Position numbers and translations under genes: made by a program. A DNA stretch of 7,783 nucleotides from Ignavibacteriales bacterium (GTDB lineage: Bacteria; Bacteroidota; Ignavibacteria; Ignavibacteriales; Ignavibacteriaceae), in the NCBI GenBank assembly GCA_020061995.1, contig JAGUXE010000022.1:1-7783 (forward strand). Direction: 5' to 3'. Positions 1 to 7,783 of this stretch are shown here, one piece after another; within the stretch, counting starts at the first letter, position 1; each line of letters opens with the position of its first letter. Below the pieces are notes generated by a model, which searched no databases, was not told the DNA's origin, and worked only from the letters and a program-made list of their open reading frames with translations.

Positions 1-875
1 AATAAAGGTTTTCTAATATATTCGATTGTAATCTTCAATTCATCAAGCTTATCAATTAGTTTTTGTAATTCAGAAAAATCAGATGAAAGTATCAAATGTA
101 TTGGTGAATTAATAACTAGTTTTAGATTTACCATATTTCGTTCTTTAAGTCGTGTTAACAGATTAATTAGCACAGCTTTTGCAATCAATCCGGGAACGAC
201 AATTTCATCAACACCATCTTTTATTTCTTCTAAAAGCTGTGATGTATCTACCATTTCGAGAAGTGATTTCAATTCAGAATTTGTTTCATTCATTTTAGAA
301 ATAATTTTTATGGTCTTTAATTCCCCATATTTTTCTTTAGAAACTGAATATGAAAATATTCGTTCAATTGACTTCATTTCAGACGAAAGTACAGAAATAT
401 TACTATTTCTCGAAGCTCCGGTTGTAAATATTATTTTATCAATGATCGACATTGGTGAAATTCGATTAAGTGAACCATCAACAAAAAGAATTTCAACTTT
501 GTACTCATTAATCAGATCAATAATATTTTCGAGATCACTTTTTTTATTTGGACCTGAAATTACAAGTAATCCGGGCTTAGTAATTTTTACAATAAAAATT
601 TCTCCAAGTGCAGTCTTCAACCCGGTTCTTTTTAACAATTCGTATTTAACATCACTTGTTTGTAAACATTTTTCGGATGTTGCAACAATTACATTTTTTT
701 CAATTAACAATCTCGGTTTTGGAAGTAGAGTAATATTATCAATTTCTTCCCCATCATAACCTATTCCTGTAACTGCAATTGTTTTTTGATATTGTCCTAA
801 ACTTCCAAGTAAAAAAGAAAGAGTTGTAGTCTTTCCTGTATTCTTTGCTGTTCCCACAATACCGATTACTTGCAT
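1..875 (-). CDS. KamB-like P-loop reactivase subunit for a B12-dependent aminomutase (3' end outside window)
   Basis: The reading frame is open from an ATG at 873-875 to the left edge: 291 codons without a stop, C-terminus missing. The product opens with a BioD-like P-loop: G8, five residues, then G14-K15-T16-T17. It continues with a GYDGEEID motif at 39-46, a KPR motif near 53-55 and a Walker-B-like strand ending VDGSLNR at 132-138. From memory, this order matches KamB, the non-MutS subunit of the D-lysine 5,6-aminomutase reactivase. That factor uses ATP to exchange damaged cobalamin on the mutase. I could not run an alignment. The gene starts only 3 nt after the stop of the mutase gene and has no good ribosome binding site, which suggests translational coupling and a role serving that mutase. 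A MutS-like KamC partner would be expected just beyond the left edge. Alternatively it is an unrelated SIMIBI-class GTPase/ATPase. The P-loop call is firm and the KamB call is moderate. Confidence 0.7.
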   Translation of the reverse strand, partial: MQVIGIVGTAKNTGKTTTLSFLLGSLGQYQKTIAVTGIGYDGEEIDNITLLPKPRLLIEKNVIVATSEKCLQTSDVKYELLKRTGLKTALGEIFIVKITKPGLLVISGPNKKSDLENIIDLINEYKVEILFVDGSLNRISPMSIIDKIIFTTGASRNSNISVLSSEMKSIERIFSYSVSKEKYGELKTIKIISKMNETNSELKSLLEMVDTSQLLEEIKDGVDEIVVPGLIAKAVLINLLTRLKERNMVNLKLVINSPIHLILSSDFSELQKLIDKLDELKITIEYIRKPL

Positions 876-878
876 ATC

Positions 879-2687
879 TTAATTTAGGTTTCTTATAGTT
901 TCAAAACCGAATTTACCGGGATATGCACCATCCTCCTGGTTTCCCAGATCACCTAAATTAATTGATTCTGCAAGATTATTTCTACTCGCAACCAATTTTA
1001 ATACATCTATTACTTTTTTCCTTAATTCAGAAATAAAATCATCACATTTTGAAGTAGTGCTAAATGAAGCATCACCGATAAACCTATAAGCATCGGTTAT
1101 GGCTCTTATACTATCAATTCTTGATGTAATACAGATTGGACCTCTTGAATAGGCTTCATCTGTAGAAGCAACAGTTATTGCATCAACTCCTAATGAGGCA
1201 GCAAGCGCTGCATGATAAGAAGTTGCATTTGCACTTTGCACACGTTCTTCAGTTTGAGTCATAAAAGCAATTGGTTCACCGGGCCAAATTGGCATATCGG
1301 CAATTGACCTTAGGAGTTTAATTTTGGCAGCATTATAATCAATAAAATTTTGCTTCATCATTCCGTTAATTACTATATGTGGACCATAACAGAAAAGTGG
1401 TTTTGGGATTGCTTTAGCACCAAGTTTTTTACCAAGCATAACATTAATTAATAACCCTGCTAATGTTTTCCAGGCAGGAACACCACTCAACTCATCATTC
1501 CCCGGAATATCAAAAGGCATTTTAAATTTTGCCGAAAGTTTAATTGCTTCAATACCATCAATTGCAAGTCTAGTTGGATCAGTACCTGCACCAAGTGAAC
1601 CATAAACTAAATTTATTTTCGATAGATCTGCTCCTGCTAATCCGGCTAAAAGAACTGTCTCGGGAGTATTTAATCCTCGGTGTGCACGAACAGTTAATAA
1701 AGTAGTTGGGTCTAACAATTCACGCATTAATTTTATATTTTCAAATGATGTGATAGTCCCATCATTTTCGTGTGTTAGGAGTCCTTCAATTAGTCCTTCA
1801 TATCGAGCTTCCCATGATGGATTAATAATCAGATAACCGTTTATTCCCCATCGTTCACAAATCTTACCGTGTGCAATATCTAATATTGGACACCCGCTTC
1901 CTAAAAATTTGAAGATTGCCGGTTGTTTTTCATTATGCTGAATTTTGACGGGATTGATTACACCAGATTCTTTTAAATATTTCTTAAGTGCTTCTAACTC
2001 ATTTTGAGAAACTTTTCTTACACCTTTGGGATATTGTTGATTCTTATTTGCAGCAACAATAACTGCATCTGAAATAAGATTGTATTTCTGAATAAGTTTT
2101 TCTTTTACTTCAGAATTCTTCGTTTGAAAAATTTCTTCTTTTAATTTAGCTCTTTCTACTGCAGGTGAAGTCTTGCTCTCTCCCCATTTAAGAGTTTTAT
2201 CAATTATTCCTTCAAGAAGTGACTCAATTTCCTTATCAAAAAAATCATATGAATATTTAGAAGTGAAATCTTTTTTCTCTCGCTGCAAACCTTTGTTGGA
2301 AATTTTTACTTCTCTCCCTTCTATATAAGCTAATAGTTCGTCAAGATTTGAGTGTTCACCAAAGCCTTTATCGAAGCCAAGTTCGGCAGCTAATTCAGGT
2401 GTTATCGGTTTTCCACCAATTACAATTTTTGATTTTTCTCTAACTCCGGCAGCATCTAATAGGTCTACAAATCTGGCTAATAATTCTGCAACACCATAAC
2501 CAAGAGTTCTACTTACAAGGATAAAATCATAATTCCCTTTTAATGCTTTATTTACAACCGCTTCCATCGATAAATCCGGTGAAAGTAATTCGGTATTATG
2601 ACCGTTTTTGTCCAATTCACTTTTAATGATTTTAATCCCGACATCATGAACAGGGTCAAGAGGTACACATAGAATATTTTTAACCAT
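879..2687 (-). CDS. Adenosylcobalamin-dependent aminomutase-like protein with N-terminal B12 domain fused to OraS/KamD-like segment and TIM barrel
   Basis: This 602-aa protein resembles D-lysine 5,6-/D-ornithine 4,5-aminomutases with the parts reordered. Residues 1-125 are a B12-binding Rossmann domain: D11-P-V-H14-D-V-G17, then 41 residues to S59, and G91-G92. H14 is the presumed lower cobalt ligand. Residues 140-220 resemble OraS and the KamD N-terminus (TSPAVER, 173-179). Residues 250-540 are the likely TIM barrel, with ARYEGLIEG (294-302; OraE has YDGLIEG), ENIKLMREL (316-324; KamD has ENFRLMREA) and RGLNTPETVLLAG (337-349), which also recalls GlmE. In KamE and OraE the PLP lysine lies 11 residues after the B12 histidine; here that residue is L25 and the loop is about 8 residues shorter. 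A PLP Schiff base is therefore doubtful. The start overlaps the 85-aa gene by 8 nt, with AAGGGA upstream. The substrate and exact reaction are unknown, and a carbon-skeleton (glutamate-mutase-type) rearrangement is a real alternative. Confidence 0.82.
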   Translation of the reverse strand: MVKNILCVPLDPVHDVGIKIIKSELDKNGHNTELLSPDLSMEAVVNKALKGNYDFILVSRTLGYGVAELLARFVDLLDAAGVREKSKIVIGGKPITPELAAELGFDKGFGEHSNLDELLAYIEGREVKISNKGLQREKKDFTSKYSYDFFDKEIESLLEGIIDKTLKWGESKTSPAVERAKLKEEIFQTKNSEVKEKLIQKYNLISDAVIVAANKNQQYPKGVRKVSQNELEALKKYLKESGVINPVKIQHNEKQPAIFKFLGSGCPILDIAHGKICERWGINGYLIINPSWEARYEGLIEGLLTHENDGTITSFENIKLMRELLDPTTLLTVRAHRGLNTPETVLLAGLAGADLSKINLVYGSLGAGTDPTRLAIDGIEAIKLSAKFKMPFDIPGNDELSGVPAWKTLAGLLINVMLGKKLGAKAIPKPLFCYGPHIVINGMMKQNFIDYNAAKIKLLRSIADMPIWPGEPIAFMTQTEERVQSANATSYHAALAASLGVDAITVASTDEAYSRGPICITSRIDSIRAITDAYRFIGDASFSTTSKCDDFISELRKKVIDVLKLVASRNNLAESINLGDLGNQEDGAYPGKFGFETIRNLN

Positions 2688-2937
2688 TGACTATTCCCTT
2701 ATTCTCATTGTTCGATTGATTCATCAACCATGGATAAGAATTCCCGGGTTTATAAACATACTTTCGTAATCTAACCCTCATTCCATAACCATCAAATTCT
2801 TCATACATGATATCAATCTCACCCAAGTTCATTTCAATACCCAATTGCAGGGCGATTTTTTTACCGTCGTTAGGATTGGAACATACGATATATGTTTCTA
2901 CATCTATCGCATCCATTATACTATCCATTGCTTTCAT
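2680..2937 (-). CDS. Small stand-alone aminomutase dimerisation-domain (OAM_dimer-like) protein
   Basis: This is an 85-aa soluble protein with no signal peptide or membrane segment. Residues 26-43 (KKIALQLGIEMNLGEIDI) followed by an alternating strand near 50-62 resemble, from memory, the dimerisation domain at the N-terminus of KamE (around KQIALKMGLEE) and in the middle of OraE (around FAKKMNLEEVEV). In those enzymes the domain is covalently joined ahead of the B12 domain. Here it is a separate gene whose stop overlaps the mutase start by 8 nt, so it is probably a co-translated small subunit. The 15 C-terminal residues are polar, Asn-rich and probably disordered. The ATG at 2935-2937 is the only ATG between the upstream in-frame stop and the conserved region's first methionines. 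Its ribosome binding site (GGAAT) is weak, and a start at M4 cannot be excluded. The family call rests on a short match. Confidence 0.62.
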   Translation of the reverse strand: MKAMDSIMDAIDVETYIVCSNPNDGKKIALQLGIEMNLGEIDIMYEEFDGYGMRVRLRKYVYKPGNSYPWLMNQSNNENKGIVNG

Positions 2938-3036
2938 AAAAAGAATTCCATCTAATACATATGTGAAATTATCGAGAAGCGATTGAGAAAATTAAATTAT
3001 CGCTTCCCGTATGGAGGTCGGAGAGACCTAAATTAA
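2938..3036 (-). promoter_or_regulatory. Intercistronic region with two consecutive stem-loops
   Basis: The 99-nt gap between the PLP-enzyme stop and the 85-aa gene is the longest in the operon and holds two inverted repeats. The first is AGGTC (3015-3019) with GACCT (3025-3029) and a 5-nt loop. The second is GAAGCGAT (2976-2983) with ATCGCTTC (2999-3006), 15-nt loop, extended by two more pairs beyond one mismatch (2973-3009). Neither is followed by a T-run on the minus strand, so they are not classical terminators. They could be an mRNA stabiliser, a processing site or an attenuator that sets the level of the mutase genes relative to the upstream half of the operon. I see no cobalamin-riboswitch B12 box. 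Confidence 0.45.
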
Positions 3037-4503
3037 TTATTCGAAAAGACCTGCATGTTCACAAACAATTTCAATTAACATTACAAGTCCGCGAACTGTC
3101 ATTCTTGCTCTTTCTTCAATGATCTGACCGTTATTGTCTGTAGTACCAAGACCCGGTGAAATAAAAATATTTGCGTCATAAGCAATAGTTGGGATTATTC
3201 CCATTTGAGACATACCATCTTGGAATAAATTTGAACCTGAGTACATATCTTCAATACTGAAAATCGGAATTCCGATTTCGCCATTTTTCCAACTGTCTTC
3301 ATAATTGATTTCTACTGTTCCACAATTCAAACTCTTTTCTATTCTAAAGAAAGGACGAATTCGTGAATCAATCCTACTGAATTCATCTGTAACTATATTG
3401 TAAAGATCATCAATTGGTTTAGTTAAAAGAGTAGGATTGTCTCTCAAAACTCTGAGTGCTGCTAATTGTCCTGTTAAACCTTCTTTACCCGGATCCAATG
3501 TAACATAGGCAGCTTTACCGTATGATGCTGTTGTGCCATATCTCTGACCATGATATCCTAAGGCTCTTCTTATTGGGACAAGTACATCTTCTTTACCAAT
3601 TATTAAAGCACTCGTTGAAGAACCTGTTGCTTTATCCATACTGAAAATCATAACATCAGCACCAACATTTTTAATATTTGTACCAATGAATGGAATTCCC
3701 CAGGCATTATCTATAACGTAAGGAACATTATATTTTTTTGCTAAGTCAGCGATACCTTTAGAGAGAAGCGGTGTCCCATTTTTATCCTTTTCGCCATAAC
3801 CATAACCTGTTGTATCATAACCCAACGATGCAAATCCGGATAATAATGTTCTATGAATATTGGCTGTTTCAGCAATTGATTTTAATGATGCTTTAGCATC
3901 AGTATTTTTTAATAATGGAACCGGGTGGTAGTTTATTCCGTGAACAGGATATTCAGCCCCTTCAAGTGGGACTAATACTGTATCGAAATTATTTTGTCGT
4001 TTACCATAAAAACCTAACTCACCTGCAGTTGTACCTCTATCAGCAAGAATGTCTTTATACTTTGGAGGAAAAGGTCTACCGTAAGAAGCTTGATGATGTA
4101 CGTGTCTTTCAAGAGGCGCAATATAACGTGAGCGATAATTATCCCCTCTTCCTTGAGATGGAGGTGTCATCAACGAATCGAAAGAAACCCAAAGTCCACC
4201 TTCACAAGTATTTACCGGTGCCGCATCATAATCATCACCATAATATTCTTTTACAATTTCTCTAATTTGATCAACATATACGGCAAGAGGAACAACTTTT
4301 TTTGCTTCCTGAGCCATGAAATGTTCGATATCATCTCTTAGTGGAGATGGACAACCGGAAATCGCACCTGTTAAACCGAATGCGCCTTTTAGTTCTGCAG
4401 GGATATTTAAAGTTTCACCTGCTTTTTTTGCATCAGCATATATTTGCGGTATACGTTGTTGTAATCTTTTATACATCTGAAATTTTAATTTTGGCTTAGC
4501 CAT
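3037..4503 (-). CDS. Fold-type-I PLP-dependent enzyme of unassigned reaction
   Basis: This 488-aa cytosolic protein carries the hallmarks of the aspartate-aminotransferase fold. A strand ends in VIDNAWG, where D265 is the likely partner of the pyridine nitrogen. IFSMDKATGSS follows, with K291 as the likely Schiff-base lysine, and then a GYHGQRYGTT segment (317-325). The N-terminal 120 residues are unusual, with a GLTGAISGCPSP motif (43-54) and NTCEGGLW (98-105) that could form a substrate pocket. I do not recognise the subfamily. It is not the fold-type-II OrtB thiolase subunit of the ornithine pathway. It may act as an aminotransferase, a C-C lyase or a CoA-dependent cleaving enzyme downstream of the dehydrogenase, or possibly supply or handle PLP-bound substrate for the mutase. 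All of these roles are inference. It is preceded by a good ribosome binding site (CGGAG, about 7 nt from the ATG) and lies 35 nt after the 145-aa gene. Confidence 0.75.
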   Translation of the reverse strand: MAKPKLKFQMYKRLQQRIPQIYADAKKAGETLNIPAELKGAFGLTGAISGCPSPLRDDIEHFMAQEAKKVVPLAVYVDQIREIVKEYYGDDYDAAPVNTCEGGLWVSFDSLMTPPSQGRGDNYRSRYIAPLERHVHHQASYGRPFPPKYKDILADRGTTAGELGFYGKRQNNFDTVLVPLEGAEYPVHGINYHPVPLLKNTDAKASLKSIAETANIHRTLLSGFASLGYDTTGYGYGEKDKNGTPLLSKGIADLAKKYNVPYVIDNAWGIPFIGTNIKNVGADVMIFSMDKATGSSTSALIIGKEDVLVPIRRALGYHGQRYGTTASYGKAAYVTLDPGKEGLTGQLAALRVLRDNPTLLTKPIDDLYNIVTDEFSRIDSRIRPFFRIEKSLNCGTVEINYEDSWKNGEIGIPIFSIEDMYSGSNLFQDGMSQMGIIPTIAYDANIFISPGLGTTDNNGQIIEERARMTVRGLVMLIEIVCEHAGLFE

Positions 4504-4538
4504 TCTCGAACTCCGTTCTATTTATTTTTAAAGTTAAA

Positions 4539-4976
4539 TTATTTATTAAATCCTTTGATAACTATTTCGTCTCCGATTTTTAATCCGAGTTGTTTTCCGG
4601 GTATTCTTTCCTTAACCGAGATTATAGTATTTTGATGATTCGGCATGTGTGTATCATCATAACCAATAATTGTTCCTATTTCTTTTCCATTCCATGTAAC
4701 CGGGTCACCGGTAAGTAAAACACCGCTATTTTTCAATTCGACAAACGCTATATATGCAATATTATCAACCTTATCTCCGGGTTTTGCAGATGAATCATCT
4801 GTTGCGATTAATTCAATTATAGTTCCTTGAGAAAAGGCTCTGGATATGGGATGAATTAAATTCAAATCTCTATTTTCCAACTTACCATCAAGTACTACAA
4901 CAACTTCACAAACGATATCTTTTTTTGAGTGATAAAATGTACTGTTGACAAGATTTCTTTTATATGGATCTGACAT
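4539..4976 (-). CDS. Small beta-rich conserved-looking protein of unknown function
   Basis: This is a 145-aa soluble protein with no signal peptide or membrane segment. It consists mainly of short strands and turns: CEVVVVLDGK (24-33), TIIELIATDD, KPGDKVDNIAYIAFVEL (66-82), a polar loop GYDDTHMPNHQN (106-117) rich in possible metal or substrate ligands, and KIGDEIVIKG near the C-terminus (numbering from the first of two ATGs). The GD turns recall a GroES-like or OrtA-like small beta-barrel, but the match is too weak to name a family. The second ATG (4974-4976) is chosen because AGGAG at 4982-4986 lies 5 nt from it but only 2 nt from the first ATG (4979). That AGGAG overlaps the TAG stop of the upstream dehydrogenase gene, so translation is probably coupled. 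Its position between the dehydrogenase and the PLP enzyme suggests an accessory or small subunit for one of them. Confidence 0.72.
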   Translation of the reverse strand: MSDPYKRNLVNSTFYHSKKDIVCEVVVVLDGKLENRDLNLIHPISRAFSQGTIIELIATDDSSAKPGDKVDNIAYIAFVELKNSGVLLTGDPVTWNGKEIGTIIGYDDTHMPNHQNTIISVKERIPGKQLGLKIGDEIVIKGFNK

Positions 4977-4984
4977 CATTTCTC

Positions 4985-5908
4985 CTAAACAAGTTTTTTC
5001 ACAAAATCTTCAAGAGTGCCATGAAGAAAATCAATTACCGGAAGTTCAATCATTGTATAACAACCCGGTTTTTGTCTACCAGCCGCTCGTGCGGCAGAAA
5101 CCATAACTTGTGCGGTAAGAGCAGGATTATTAATCCTCATCTCAAATTTCATTATTTGATTGTGTGTGGTTCCCGAAACTCCTTTTCTCTCCATTAGTAC
5201 GCCATGTCCAACATCAATTAAATTTTGAACATCCTCCACCTCAAAAACATAAGTACGATCTTTAACAAAATATGGATCTGATTTAATTGCAATCTCAATA
5301 TCTTCGAACTTCACATCAGTTCCCAATTCTACATATACCATTCTTCTGTGAATACCCATTCCGGCAGGAACTGTTATTGATAGGGCATTTTTGACTCCTT
5401 TAATTGCTTTAACAGCACAAGTGTGTCCCATTGACATTCCGGGTCCATAATTTGTATGAGTAATCCCTCTTGGTGCCATTGCTAAAAACCAACCTCTGAT
5501 TACCGAATCAATTCCAGGGTCCCATCCCGCAGAAATAATAGAAACTTTGTTATTCTTCTTTGCAATTAAATCAAGATCATTCTTTAAATGAGGGATTTCA
5601 GAATGAATATCAAAACTATCAACAGTGTTGATACCTTTTTCCAATAAAGCGGATACTGTACTTTGTACACTTCTTGAAGGAGCACATACTATTGCTACAT
5701 CAACACCCTCAAGTTGTGAAATATCATTAACAATTTTAATTTCATTATCTCTTGAACATTTTTGTGATTTTAAAGACGCTCTAATTTTATCAATATCAAC
5801 TAAATCAACAATCCCTGCAAGTTCCATATCAGGTTCTTGAAGTAAAGCATCAAGTGCACTACACCCCACATTACCAAAACCAATTATAGCCGCTTTAATT
5901 TTATTCAT
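4985..5908 (-). CDS. ddh: meso-Diaminopimelate dehydrogenase family (type II-like) amino-acid dehydrogenase
   Basis: This 307-aa enzyme matches the meso-diaminopimelate dehydrogenase family, which reversibly oxidises the D-centre of a diamino acid to a keto group plus ammonia. Visible features are the Rossmann motif GFGNVG (10-15), SAGWDPG (126-132), YGPGMSMGH (154-162), PAGMG (181-185), ERKGVSGTTHNQ (240-251) and INNPALTAQ (259-267). Length and motifs resemble, from memory, the type II enzyme of Symbiobacterium thermophilum, which also accepts other D-amino acids. Residues 35-36 are Asp-Leu where that enzyme has the Arg-Arg pair contacting the NADP phosphate, so NAD may be the cofactor. The operon context (B12 mutase, PLP enzyme, regulator) points to catabolism rather than lysine biosynthesis. 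The natural substrate could be the mutase product instead of diaminopimelate. The start ATG follows AGGGGA by about 7 nt. The gene lies 30 nt after the regulator. Confidence 0.85.
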   Translation of the reverse strand: MNKIKAAIIGFGNVGCSALDALLQEPDMELAGIVDLVDIDKIRASLKSQKCSRDNEIKIVNDISQLEGVDVAIVCAPSRSVQSTVSALLEKGINTVDSFDIHSEIPHLKNDLDLIAKKNNKVSIISAGWDPGIDSVIRGWFLAMAPRGITHTNYGPGMSMGHTCAVKAIKGVKNALSITVPAGMGIHRRMVYVELGTDVKFEDIEIAIKSDPYFVKDRTYVFEVEDVQNLIDVGHGVLMERKGVSGTTHNQIMKFEMRINNPALTAQVMVSAARAAGRQKPGCYTMIELPVIDFLHGTLEDFVKKLV

Positions 5909-5938
5909 CCTATTTTCCCCTATTGATATAATATAAAA

Positions 5939-6634
5939 CTAATTATTTGTTTCTGAATTGAAGAACAAATTCAATGCTTTTCTGGCATTTTCACCATGAT
6001 TTTTTACTAAAATTTCAATTTCACTCTCGTCTTTATTTTCAAGAGCTGAAATGAAAGAATCGTGTTCATGTACCGATTCATCAAGATGAGAAATTAATGA
6101 GAGGTAAATATAGTTGTATCTTAAGGTTTGATTTCTTAGAACAACTATTGTTTTTCTCAACTTATCATTTCCACAATTGTCATTTATTTTTTGGTGAAAT
6201 TCAGCATTCAGTTCGAGAAATTCTTTATAATTTTTTTCTTCTGAATTTGCAATAGTCCGCATTCTATTATTAATATCGCGTAATTCCTTCAATATTGTTG
6301 GATTTAAGAATTTTACAGAAAGTCTCGCGGCTAATGCTTCTAAACAACTTTTAATCTCATAAGTTTCTTCAGCATCTTTTAAGGAAAGTGCGCTAACAAC
6401 AGCCCCTTTTCGTGGGTTTACAGTTAAAAAACCTTCTGCTTCTAATTGAAGAAAAGCTTCCCTTAATGGTGTTCGGCTTACGCCCAATTGATTTGCCACA
6501 TCAGGTTCAGCAAGTCGTTCACCGGGGACAAGTTTCCCTTCGATTATTGAGTCTCTTATTGATGCAGAGATTCTGTCGCGTAGCGATCTAATTTGCCTTA
6601 CATCGAAATTGATTAAATTTTGAATATTTTCCAT
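5939..6634 (-). CDS. GntR-family (FadR/FCD-type) transcriptional regulator
   Basis: This 231-aa DNA-binding protein is probably the local, ligand-responsive regulator of the operon it heads. The N-terminal winged helix-turn-helix (about 15-80) has the family signature PGERLAEPDVANQLGVSRTP and then LREAFLQLEAEGFLTVNPRKG. An all-helical FCD ligand-binding domain follows (about 84-226). Three likely metal-binding histidines are visible: H147 (AEFHQK), H191 (HEHDSF) and H213 (KNHGEN); the usual acidic ligand before the first appears as Asn (LNAEFH). The ATG at 6632-6634 is chosen because AAGGA lies 5-6 nt upstream. A longer frame beginning with TTG at 6676 would run through the operator and has no ribosome binding site. 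The operator at 6650-6671 just upstream implies autoregulation. The effector is probably a substrate or intermediate of the encoded pathway (inference). Confidence 0.9.
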   Translation of the reverse strand: MENIQNLINFDVRQIRSLRDRISASIRDSIIEGKLVPGERLAEPDVANQLGVSRTPLREAFLQLEAEGFLTVNPRKGAVVSALSLKDAEETYEIKSCLEALAARLSVKFLNPTILKELRDINNRMRTIANSEEKNYKEFLELNAEFHQKINDNCGNDKLRKTIVVLRNQTLRYNYIYLSLISHLDESVHEHDSFISALENKDESEIEILVKNHGENARKALNLFFNSETNN

Positions 6635-6649
6635 CTTTTTCCTTAATAC

Positions 6650-6671
6650 TGTATATTGTATACAATATACA
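6650..6671. promoter_or_regulatory. 22-bp perfect palindromic operator for the GntR/FCD regulator
   Basis: The half-site TGTATATTGTA is followed directly by its exact reverse complement, giving a 22-bp perfect palindrome with core TTGTATACAA. FCD-type GntR regulators commonly bind short palindromes of this TNGTATACNA type. It ends 15 nt before the chosen ATG of the regulator and coincides with the expected transcription start, which fits repression by blocking initiation or escape. I found no second copy in the window. Confidence 0.75.
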
Positions 6672-6673
6672 AC

Positions 6674-6705
6674 CAAAAATTAATACTAATTTTTCTCTTA
6701 TCAAA
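6674..6705 (-). promoter_or_regulatory. Candidate Bacteroidetes-type promoter of the GntR-led operon
   Basis: On the minus strand TTTG (6705-6702) is followed after 19 nt by TAATTTTTG (6682-6674). This resembles the Bacteroidetes -33 TTTG and -7 TAnnTTTG elements with one extra T. The implied start near 6668 falls inside the palindromic operator. The region is very AT-rich, so chance matches are likely. Confidence 0.4.
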
Positions 6706-6762
6706 TAAAAAAATGATTTTTTTAAAAAGAATTTTTAATGACTGTTTTATTGGTTGTAGATT

Positions 6763-6791
6763 AAAAAAAAGGCATCAAAAGATGATGCCTT
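6763..6791 (-). terminator. Intrinsic terminator of the DUF2807 lipoprotein gene
   Basis: On the minus strand a perfect 8-bp stem, AAGGCATC with GATGCCTT (6784-6791 and 6769-6776) around a 7-nt loop, runs straight into a tract of eight Ts (6770-6763). It lies 24 nt after the stop of the lipoprotein gene and before the promoter of the next operon, so it separates the two transcription units. Confidence 0.88.
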
Positions 6792-6814
6792 CAAAGTTTA
6801 GAATTTTAAGAAAT

Positions 6815-7519
6815 TTATTTCGCTTGTGAAATTCCTGAACCACCACTAAAATTTGTTCGACCCAAAGCTGCTGTCCCATAATACTTTAGTTGAGATCCGC
6901 CACTTTGGGAGGTGTTAAGGGTTCCTGTTAAATTAATAGTTCCATGTGAACCACCGGACATTTCTACATCTGCATCGATTGATTTAAAATTCTTAAGATT
7001 AATAATTGATCCACCCGAAGCACTTACATACAAGTCTCTTCCTTCTCCTTCTAAATCACTAGAACTACCACCGGATAACGAGATTTTAATATCACTACAT
7101 TTCAAAACACCCTTTAGTGCAGAACCACCAGACATATCTGCTGAAAATCTCTCATCATTAATCTCCATTTCAATTTTGCCTCGACTCCCGCCACTGAGAT
7201 TAAGTTGATTTAACAACGGCATTGAGATATTAATAAATACATCCCCTCTCGATAGCAATCGTTTTTCTGAAAAATAAAATTTAAGTTTATCCCCAATTTG
7301 ATCGACAACCAGATAATTCATAGTTTTGTCTCCTGCCTTTACTTCAACAGAATAGGAGTCTGACTGAACTATATTTACTTTCATACCACTGCTAACTGAT
7401 ACTTTTTCAAAATCCACATTATTAAAGCTTCTGGCAATTGGTTCACCTCCACCATTTACGCTCACAAAGGAACATCCGCCAAATATTAATAAAATAATCG
7501 GAACAATAACTTTAAACAT
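6815..7519 (-). CDS. DUF2807 (GIN-domain) putative lipoprotein with seven SGGS repeats
   Basis: This 234-aa protein is probably exported and lipid-anchored. The N-terminus has two charged or polar residues and a hydrophobic stretch ending LLIFGGC, with C16 as the candidate lipidated cysteine (the -3 position is Phe, so the lipobox is imperfect). The mature part begins with the family-typical FEKVSVSSGMKVNIVQ (37-52). It then carries SGGS at 109, 130, 149, 168, 188, 206 and 225, a period of about 19 residues expected of a right-handed beta-helix. Such head-GIN proteins are frequent in Bacteroidota and their role at the cell surface is unknown. The ATG at 7517-7519 is chosen because GGAGG lies 5 nt upstream; a TTG four codons earlier is part of that ribosome binding site. 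The gene has its own terminator and appears unrelated to the neighbouring catabolic operon. Confidence 0.85.
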   Translation of the reverse strand: MFKVIVPIILLIFGGCSFVSVNGGGEPIARSFNNVDFEKVSVSSGMKVNIVQSDSYSVEVKAGDKTMNYLVVDQIGDKLKFYFSEKRLLSRGDVFINISMPLLNQLNLSGGSRGKIEMEINDERFSADMSGGSALKGVLKCSDIKISLSGGSSSDLEGEGRDLYVSASGGSIINLKNFKSIDADVEMSGGSHGTINLTGTLNTSQSGGSQLKYYGTAALGRTNFSGGSGISQAK

Positions 7520-7783
7520 TTTAACCTCCAATAATTCATTTACGATTCAATTAACTCTTCAAAAATAGTTAGTCAAAACTATATTTGCACCTTATTAGGA
7601 TATTCGTAAAAAAGTAATGTCTAAACGTACAAATATGATGATAGAAATATTACTGCAACGATTCTAGATAATATAAAACCTGGTTCTTAAATTATTATAT
7701 CTTATTTTTAACAAATTAATTTTAACAAATACATCAAATAATGGATTACAAAAATAAGAATAAGACCATAGAAATATTAATAG
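7520..7783. other. AT-rich intergenic region upstream of the lipoprotein gene
   Basis: I see no complete gene in these 264 nt. On the minus strand TAGTTTTG (7581-7574) fits a Bacteroidetes -7 element and would give a 5' leader of about 50 nt for the lipoprotein gene, but no convincing -33 TTG precedes it. On the plus strand an ATG at 7741 opens a frame of 14 codons to the window edge without a ribosome binding site; it could be the start of a divergent gene but cannot be called. Confidence 0.4.
7706..7730. repeat. Short tandem direct repeat (2 x 11 bp)
   Basis: TTTTAACAAAT occurs at 7706-7716 and again at 7720-7730, separated by TAA, a 14-nt period. A second pair, ATAGAAATATTA, occurs at 7641-7652 and 7768-7779. 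Both are exact but lie in very AT-rich sequence, so they may be chance. If functional they would be binding sites between the lipoprotein gene and whatever lies to the right. Confidence 0.3.

Follow-up and report, generated by a model that had tools for sequence, protein, structure and literature searches.

Gene Organization of the Locus

The DNA analysed here, referred to as the window, is a stretch of 7,783 nucleotides (nt) from an Ignavibacteriales bacterium (assembly GCA_020061995.1, contig JAGUXE010000022.1, positions 1-7,783). All genes of interest are located on its minus strand, among them two adjacent genes encoding an 85-aa protein and a 602-aa adenosylcobalamin (AdoCbl) mutase-like protein (Table 1). 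This pair looks like a branch of the scaffold of lysine 5,6-aminomutase (LAM; KamD/KamE) and D-ornithine 4,5-aminomutase (OAM; OraS/OraE) that is free of pyridoxal 5'-phosphate (PLP) and is encoded in a diaminopimelate-linked cassette, which is a weightier result than the architecture of the two proteins.

Table 1. Genes, domains and motifs of the window discussed in the text.
Feature	Position	Strand	Remarks
GntR/FCD regulator	5939..6637	-	Head of operon
meso-Diaminopimelate dehydrogenase-like (DAPDH) protein, 307 aa	4985..5908	-	TIGR01921, 308.5 bits vs cut-off 180.6
DUF6917 protein	4539..4979	-	Frequent companion of the 488-aa PLP enzyme
488-aa PLP enzyme, probably fold type I	3037..4503	-	Weak matches: aminotransferase class V, Cys/Met sulfhydrylase families
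85-aa protein, free OAM_dimer-like subunit	2680..2937	-	Overlaps start of 602-aa gene by 8 nt
602-aa AdoCbl mutase-like protein: B12 domain, OraS/KamD-N-like helices, TIM barrel	879..2687	-	
B12-binding domain, residues 1-125 of 602-aa protein	2313..2687	-	
Helical segment, residues ~148-245 of 602-aa protein	1953..2246	-	Structural alignment with LAM alpha N-terminus
TIM barrel, residues 250-602 of 602-aa protein	882..1940	-	
NPSWEARY (289-296)	1800..1823	-	Matched by position to LAM PLP-phosphate loop R-S-T-G-Q-S
VRAHRGLNTPE (333-343)	1659..1691	-	Aligned to LAM VNYASGLCMPE
D510-E511	1155..1160	-	Aligned to OAM D337-E338
KamB-like P-loop reactivase gene	3..875	-	Cut by window end; NF052386

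Domain Architecture of the Pair

As judged from sequence and structural modelling, the pair consists of a separate dimerisation subunit and a single chain in which a B12-binding domain, OraS-like helices and a TIM barrel are fused. The B12-binding family PF02310 was matched by all 72 members of the 602-aa family examined, and the LAM beta and OraE models matched the same 72 with the best E-values. The cobalamin motif of the window protein, D11-P-V-H14-D-V-G-I-K19, has the spacing D-x2-H-x2-G instead of D-x-H-x2-G; H14 and G91-G92 are conserved in 72/72 members, and G17 and S59 in 66/72 each. In addition to its structural alignment with LAM alpha, the helical segment was compared alone by profile, with KamD at 13% and OraE at 0.2%, neither a clear match, and PF16552 (OAM_alpha) was found in one of the 72 members. 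Structure and profile comparisons both assigned the barrel to the LAM/OAM type. Kinship of the barrel with GlmE instead of LAM was ruled out by the same two approaches; the GlmE profile was not significant (6%), and PF06368 matched 0/72 members at E 0.01. The initial annotation was thus borne out in placing B12, OraS-like and TIM regions in this order in one chain, and in holding the barrel to be closer to KamD/OraE than to GlmE or methylmalonyl-CoA mutase (MCM).

The 85-aa protein, which had been proposed to be a free dimerisation domain, does resemble that of KamE/OraE. Its identification as OAM_dimer is based on structure comparison, in which OAM_dimer matches occupied rows 1-6, on profile comparison of the family with OAM_dimer domains (85%/55%), and on PF16554 (OAM_dimer) matches in 15 of 63 sequences at E up to 10 (best 8.4e-5), which are weak and consistent. 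When the profiles are aligned in global mode, the match to KamE drops to 4%, and neither a single-sequence PDB search nor the profile search found an OAM_dimer chain for this protein. Whole-genome searches with PF16554 and PF09043 missed the new pair in 10/10 genomes that carry it, and the three matches obtained with each model were all ordinary KamDE genes.

Apparent Loss of the PLP Site

The PLP of LAM is anchored on Lys144 of the B12 domain; its phosphate is contacted by Arg184, Ser189, Arg268 and the backbone of 187-189, and its ring by Ser238 (ring N), Asn299 (O3'), Tyr263 (stacking) and Tyr236 (PMC3958899, excerpt). In the profile alignments, these positions fall within conserved motifs. 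For the phosphate loop, the hhalign alignment was gapped against KamD and gap-free against OraE; the gap-free register, which also keeps equal spacing to the next motif (GT..T.EN), was used. The position of the Schiff-base lysine (K144 of LAM beta, K629 of OraE; 11 residues after the axial His) corresponds to Leu25, with Leu in 71 of the 72 sequences and Phe in one. At the phosphate-loop positions, R184 is replaced by D (39), N (31) or C (2), G187 by W (72), and S189 by A (70) or V (2). R268 is replaced by A (55) or G (17), N299 by E (38), D (33) or Q (1), Y236 by A in 68 and other residues in four (A335 in the window protein), and S238 by R in all 72 (R337). Five of the six PLP contacts tested (R184, S189, S238, R268 and N299) were therefore replaced, the sixth, the stacking Y263, being kept. 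In the comparison sets, the lysine pattern was kept in 23/25 KamE and 8/8 OraE-set frames, and the phosphate pattern in 22/24 KamD and 8/8 OraE-set frames.

The residue composition at the aligned LAM contact positions indicates that the PLP pocket is dismantled throughout the 72 sequences. With the lysine and nearly all PLP-holding side chains of LAM and OAM lost, the enzyme most likely works without PLP. The 602-aa protein should accordingly not be classed with the lysine and ornithine aminomutases, since the two defining features tested, the Schiff-base lysine and the PLP contacts, are not those of such enzymes. The label of KamDE/OraSE-type mutase given in the initial annotation is not supported in its usual sense of a PLP-dependent aminomutase, as the lysine and most other contacts are replaced family-wide.

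Residues for Probable Radical Chemistry

Glu511 (in ASTDEAY), kept in 72/72 sequences, aligns with Glu338 of OAM (in ITPDEGRN), whose position in the sequence was fixed from the mutagenic primers printed in PMC4413051. According to excerpts of the same paper, substrate-induced Co-C homolysis is impaired in Glu338 variants, and comparable residues are Glu330 of glutamate mutase and Glu370 of MCM. Further residues invariant in the 72 sequences are R295, R334, R337, R373, His336 and Glu297. In glutamate mutase, the substrate is held by a claw of three arginines, at 66, 100 and 149 (PMC9545868, excerpt); by spacing, R149 falls in the GlmE motif RHGTPDA, which resembles VRAHRGLNTPE of the 602-aa protein. 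The replaced PLP contacts, the retention of Glu511 and the four invariant barrel arginines suggest that the protein is probably a radical B12 mutase that acts without PLP on a carboxylate-rich substrate.

Distribution and Gene Neighbourhood

The 602-aa protein has numerous full-length relatives, with 1062 matches obtained from 8000 scored candidates. The top 120 of these 1062 are 597-614 aa long and at least 65% identical, and where named they carry generic names only (B12-binding domain protein, cobalamin-dependent protein, methylmalonyl-CoA mutase subunit, hypothetical protein). One genome per species was retained for the locus survey, giving 75 loci which, by the taxon names in the record titles, span Ignavibacteriota, Bacteroidota, Atribacteria, Thermotogota, Sumerlaeota, an Omnitrophota metagenome-assembled genome (MAG) and Bacillota, including Paenibacillus and Symbiobacterium. 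The adjacent pair proposed in the initial annotation recurs widely: the 85-aa gene was present in 71 of the 75 loci, in addition to the window, and its end lies at most 35 nt from the mutase start, or overlaps it, in 61/72 cases, 38-67 nt away in seven and ~0.9 kb away in four. In L010, a CorA-type magnesium transporter gene (9056-9976) lies between the two genes, and similar 0.9-kb gaps occur in L012, L013 and L070. Among the four loci without the 85-aa gene, L023 and L025 are truncated where the contig stops, and in L030 (Sumerlaeota; 2437-4239) and L046 (Bacillota MAG; 9986-11905) no 85-aa profile match was found near the mutase, nor any KamB-like match at the locus.

Of the loci, 39 are fully flanked, having long flanks on either side; the 85-aa gene was found in all 39 of these, KamB in 36, DUF6917 in 28, the PLP enzyme in 27 and DAPDH in 15. 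Where a KamB-like gene was present, it was within 400 nt of the mutase in 63/65 cases, window included; three Paenibacillus loci had no KamB within the stretch examined. The KamB-like gene of the window, incomplete at the window end, scored 186.1 bits against the NF052386 equivalog (cut-off 210). In L034 (Desulfosporosinus), two sets of DUF6917, PLP enzyme and flavin adenine dinucleotide (FAD) oxidoreductase genes surround one mutase (2919-6611 and 14962-18838). Upstream of the window operon, at 6815-7531, lies a gene for a DUF2807 (head GIN domain) protein with repeated GGS motifs, and such a gene is likewise upstream in L001.

The dehydrogenase of the window passes the diaminopimelate-dehydrogenase equivalog cut-off of TIGR01921, and its best PDB match was the diaminopimelate dehydrogenase 3wb9 (385.7 bits), presumably the S. 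thermophilum enzyme. The motifs AGWDPG, GPGxSxGH, HxRxVYV and NPAxT were invariant in 26/26 copies from the operons that reach 290 aa or more, that of the window among them. A dapF gene directly precedes the 85-aa gene in Thermotogota L029 and L031 and Atribacteria L032, and lies further off in L039 and L062; the copies scanned as loci (L029, L032 and L039) passed the DapF cut-off, and genome G006 has an additional DapF elsewhere. Uptake genes occur at some loci, of TRAP type in L027 and L029 and of LivF/G/H-type ABC in L032, and six loci have a multispan protein (F61) that was labelled a permease purely by its appearance. No close solved relative was found for F61 or the 488-aa PLP enzyme, and no reaction was therefore assigned to them by homology. 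Some loci that lack DAPDH have other oxidoreductases instead: a GIDA-like FAD protein (F21) occurs in 15 loci, one of which (L029) also has DAPDH, and an OCD/SbnB-like enzyme in three Paenibacillus loci. The 488-aa PLP enzyme is missing from 12 fully flanked loci; among these, a Cys/Met-type PLP enzyme is present in each of two Paenibacillus loci, and an ACC-deaminase/CuyA-like one in L032. Taken together, these neighbours, DAPDH here and DapF and amino-acid transporters in other phyla, suggest from gene context a role in diaminopimelate catabolism.

DUF6917 carries a signature, G-x-D-x-x-H-x-P-N-H-x-N, that is invariant across 29 sequences and possibly marks a metal or ligand site. In six of ten genomes (G001-G005 and G008), three DapF-bearing Ignavibacteria among them, no DapB was found; in the Ignavibacteria G001-G003, DapF and the operon DAPDH are present and no DapB match was found. 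This absence was not used as proof that the diaminopimelate genes are catabolic, as DapB may have been missed or divergent, or the MAGs incomplete.

Proposed Reaction and Alternatives

We propose, from the genes alone and with a probability of about 0.5, that the pair is an AdoCbl radical mutase of LAM/OAM structural lineage that lacks PLP and belongs to a diaminopimelate-type catabolic cassette. A fuller version, in which the mutase is derived from or ancestral to LAM/OAM and, with its detached dimer subunit, opens an undescribed anaerobic route for diaminopimelate from cell walls, is more tentative and falls somewhat short of an even chance. His14 would serve as the B12 ligand and Glu511 would aid Co-C breakage; with both kept, a 5'-deoxyadenosyl radical is expected. 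Arg295, Arg334, Arg337 and Arg373, with His336, may hold the substrate carboxylates like the arginine claw of glutamate mutase. The cassette would then run from uptake through the mutase step, supported by the KamB-type reactivase, to oxidation of a D-amino centre by the DAPDH-like enzyme (by other oxidoreductases in some phyla) and cleavage by the PLP lyase with DUF6917. As substrate, diaminopimelate or a closely related compound is most likely. As a specific guess, diaminopimelate would undergo a glutamate-mutase-like glycyl shift to 2,5-diamino-3-methyladipate, which the dehydrogenase would convert to 2-amino-3-methyl-5-oxoadipate and the PLP lyase to pyruvate, 2-oxobutyrate and ammonia.

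Several points weigh against this proposal. A glycyl shift that begins with an unactivated C4 radical is demanding chemistry, and the likeness to the arginine claw is one of motif position only, the GlmE profile alignment being not significant. Mapping of the PLP contacts relied on sequence-profile alignment, not on superposed coordinates, and the stacking Tyr263 of LAM is retained as Y362 in 72/72 sequences. The enzyme could still be a PLP-dependent aminomutase of LAM/OAM type whose PLP is bound by new residues together with a lysine that has moved, such as Lys357 of the barrel, which is five residues before Tyr362 and likewise invariant (72/72). PLP is used by LAM and OAM, the structurally closest relatives, and a KamB-type reactivase travels with the mutase; however, the phosphate loop, both phosphate arginines, the ring-N serine and the O3' asparagine are all replaced, and relocating just the lysine would leave the pocket unrestored, which makes this explanation unlikely.

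The assignment of diaminopimelate meets objections of its own. Clustered DapF was found in five of the 75 loci and DAPDH in just 15/39 fully flanked ones; of the 24 that lack it, 13 showed no GIDA-like FAD, OCD-like or DAO-type oxidoreductase either, and at nine of the 12 without the 488-aa PLP enzyme (L048, which has an OCD-like enzyme, and eight others) no substitute was identified, so that the pathway logic fails at some loci. DAPDH does not fix the substrate, because type II homologues, the S. thermophilum enzyme for one, accept other 2-keto acids for amination too (PMC7084900, excerpt). The absence of DAPDH at 24 of these loci, the few with DapF and the varying type of oxidoreductase would all agree with a PLP-free AdoCbl mutase or ammonia-lyase acting on another amino acid, for instance a derivative of lysine, ornithine or glutamate; the DAPDH-like enzyme would then have been co-opted as a D-amino-acid dehydrogenase of general use. 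The window DAPDH nevertheless lies far above the equivalog cut-off and has a meso-DAPDH as its best PDB match, and no activity of DapF on lysine or ornithine is known; a different substrate is accordingly rather improbable. That the 602-aa protein is a corrinoid methyl-transfer or sensory protein is very improbable, for although its B12 domain scores against methyltransferase corrinoid proteins too, it is the LAM beta and OraE models that give the best E-values, the barrel resembles that of LAM and Glu511 never varies.

Few enzymes combine the chemistry of B12 and PLP on a single scaffold, and LAM and OAM belong to these few (PMC3958899). If the PLP-free reading is true, a widespread natural form of this scaffold without the PLP pocket raises the questions of whether this scaffold acquired PLP or lost it and of what role the barrel has in its absence, and the separate dimer subunit would make the large-scale motion of the B12 domain accessible to mix-and-match experiments. 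The diaminopimelate reading, if true, would give anaerobes a route for turnover of an amino acid specific to the cell wall. The searches made of the open-access PMC literature, judged from listings and abstract openings, gave no description of the 602-aa mutase family, nor any paper on diaminopimelate degradation or catabolism or on DUF6917.

Comparison with Known Systems

Compared with LAM (PDB 1xrs, 8t0v, 9q1a), the new pair differs in domain order and in the position of the chain break, has no PLP lysine, has its PLP phosphate and ring contacts replaced, and carries D-x2-H where LAM has D-x-H. Single-chain lysine aminomutases seem to exist, to judge from Desulfotomaculum copahuensis, in which KamD and KamE are in one open frame (TIM-dimer-B12; L076, 7-2238), and from a similar long frame in L110. 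In glutamate mutase (GlmE/GlmS), GlmS is separate, whereas the B12 domain is fused in the 602-aa protein, and GlmE is not known to have an OAM_dimer partner.

The domain set, including the OraS-like segment, is shared with OAM (PDB 3kow-3kp1), and Glu338 corresponds to Glu511; however, OraE is a single TIM-dimer-B12 chain with PLP on Lys629, whereas in the new pair B12 comes first and the dimer domain is separate. In the ornithine pathway, an oxidising dehydrogenase and a PLP enzyme are encoded nearby, as they are at the new mutase. A relationship between DUF6917 and OrtA of that pathway, suggested by eye, was unsupported, with no profile match (1.3%). Ornithine fermentation employs a mutase, an amine oxidation and a PLP enzyme, and the recurring set of the cassette mirrors this combination, although with a dicarboxylic substrate being more likely.
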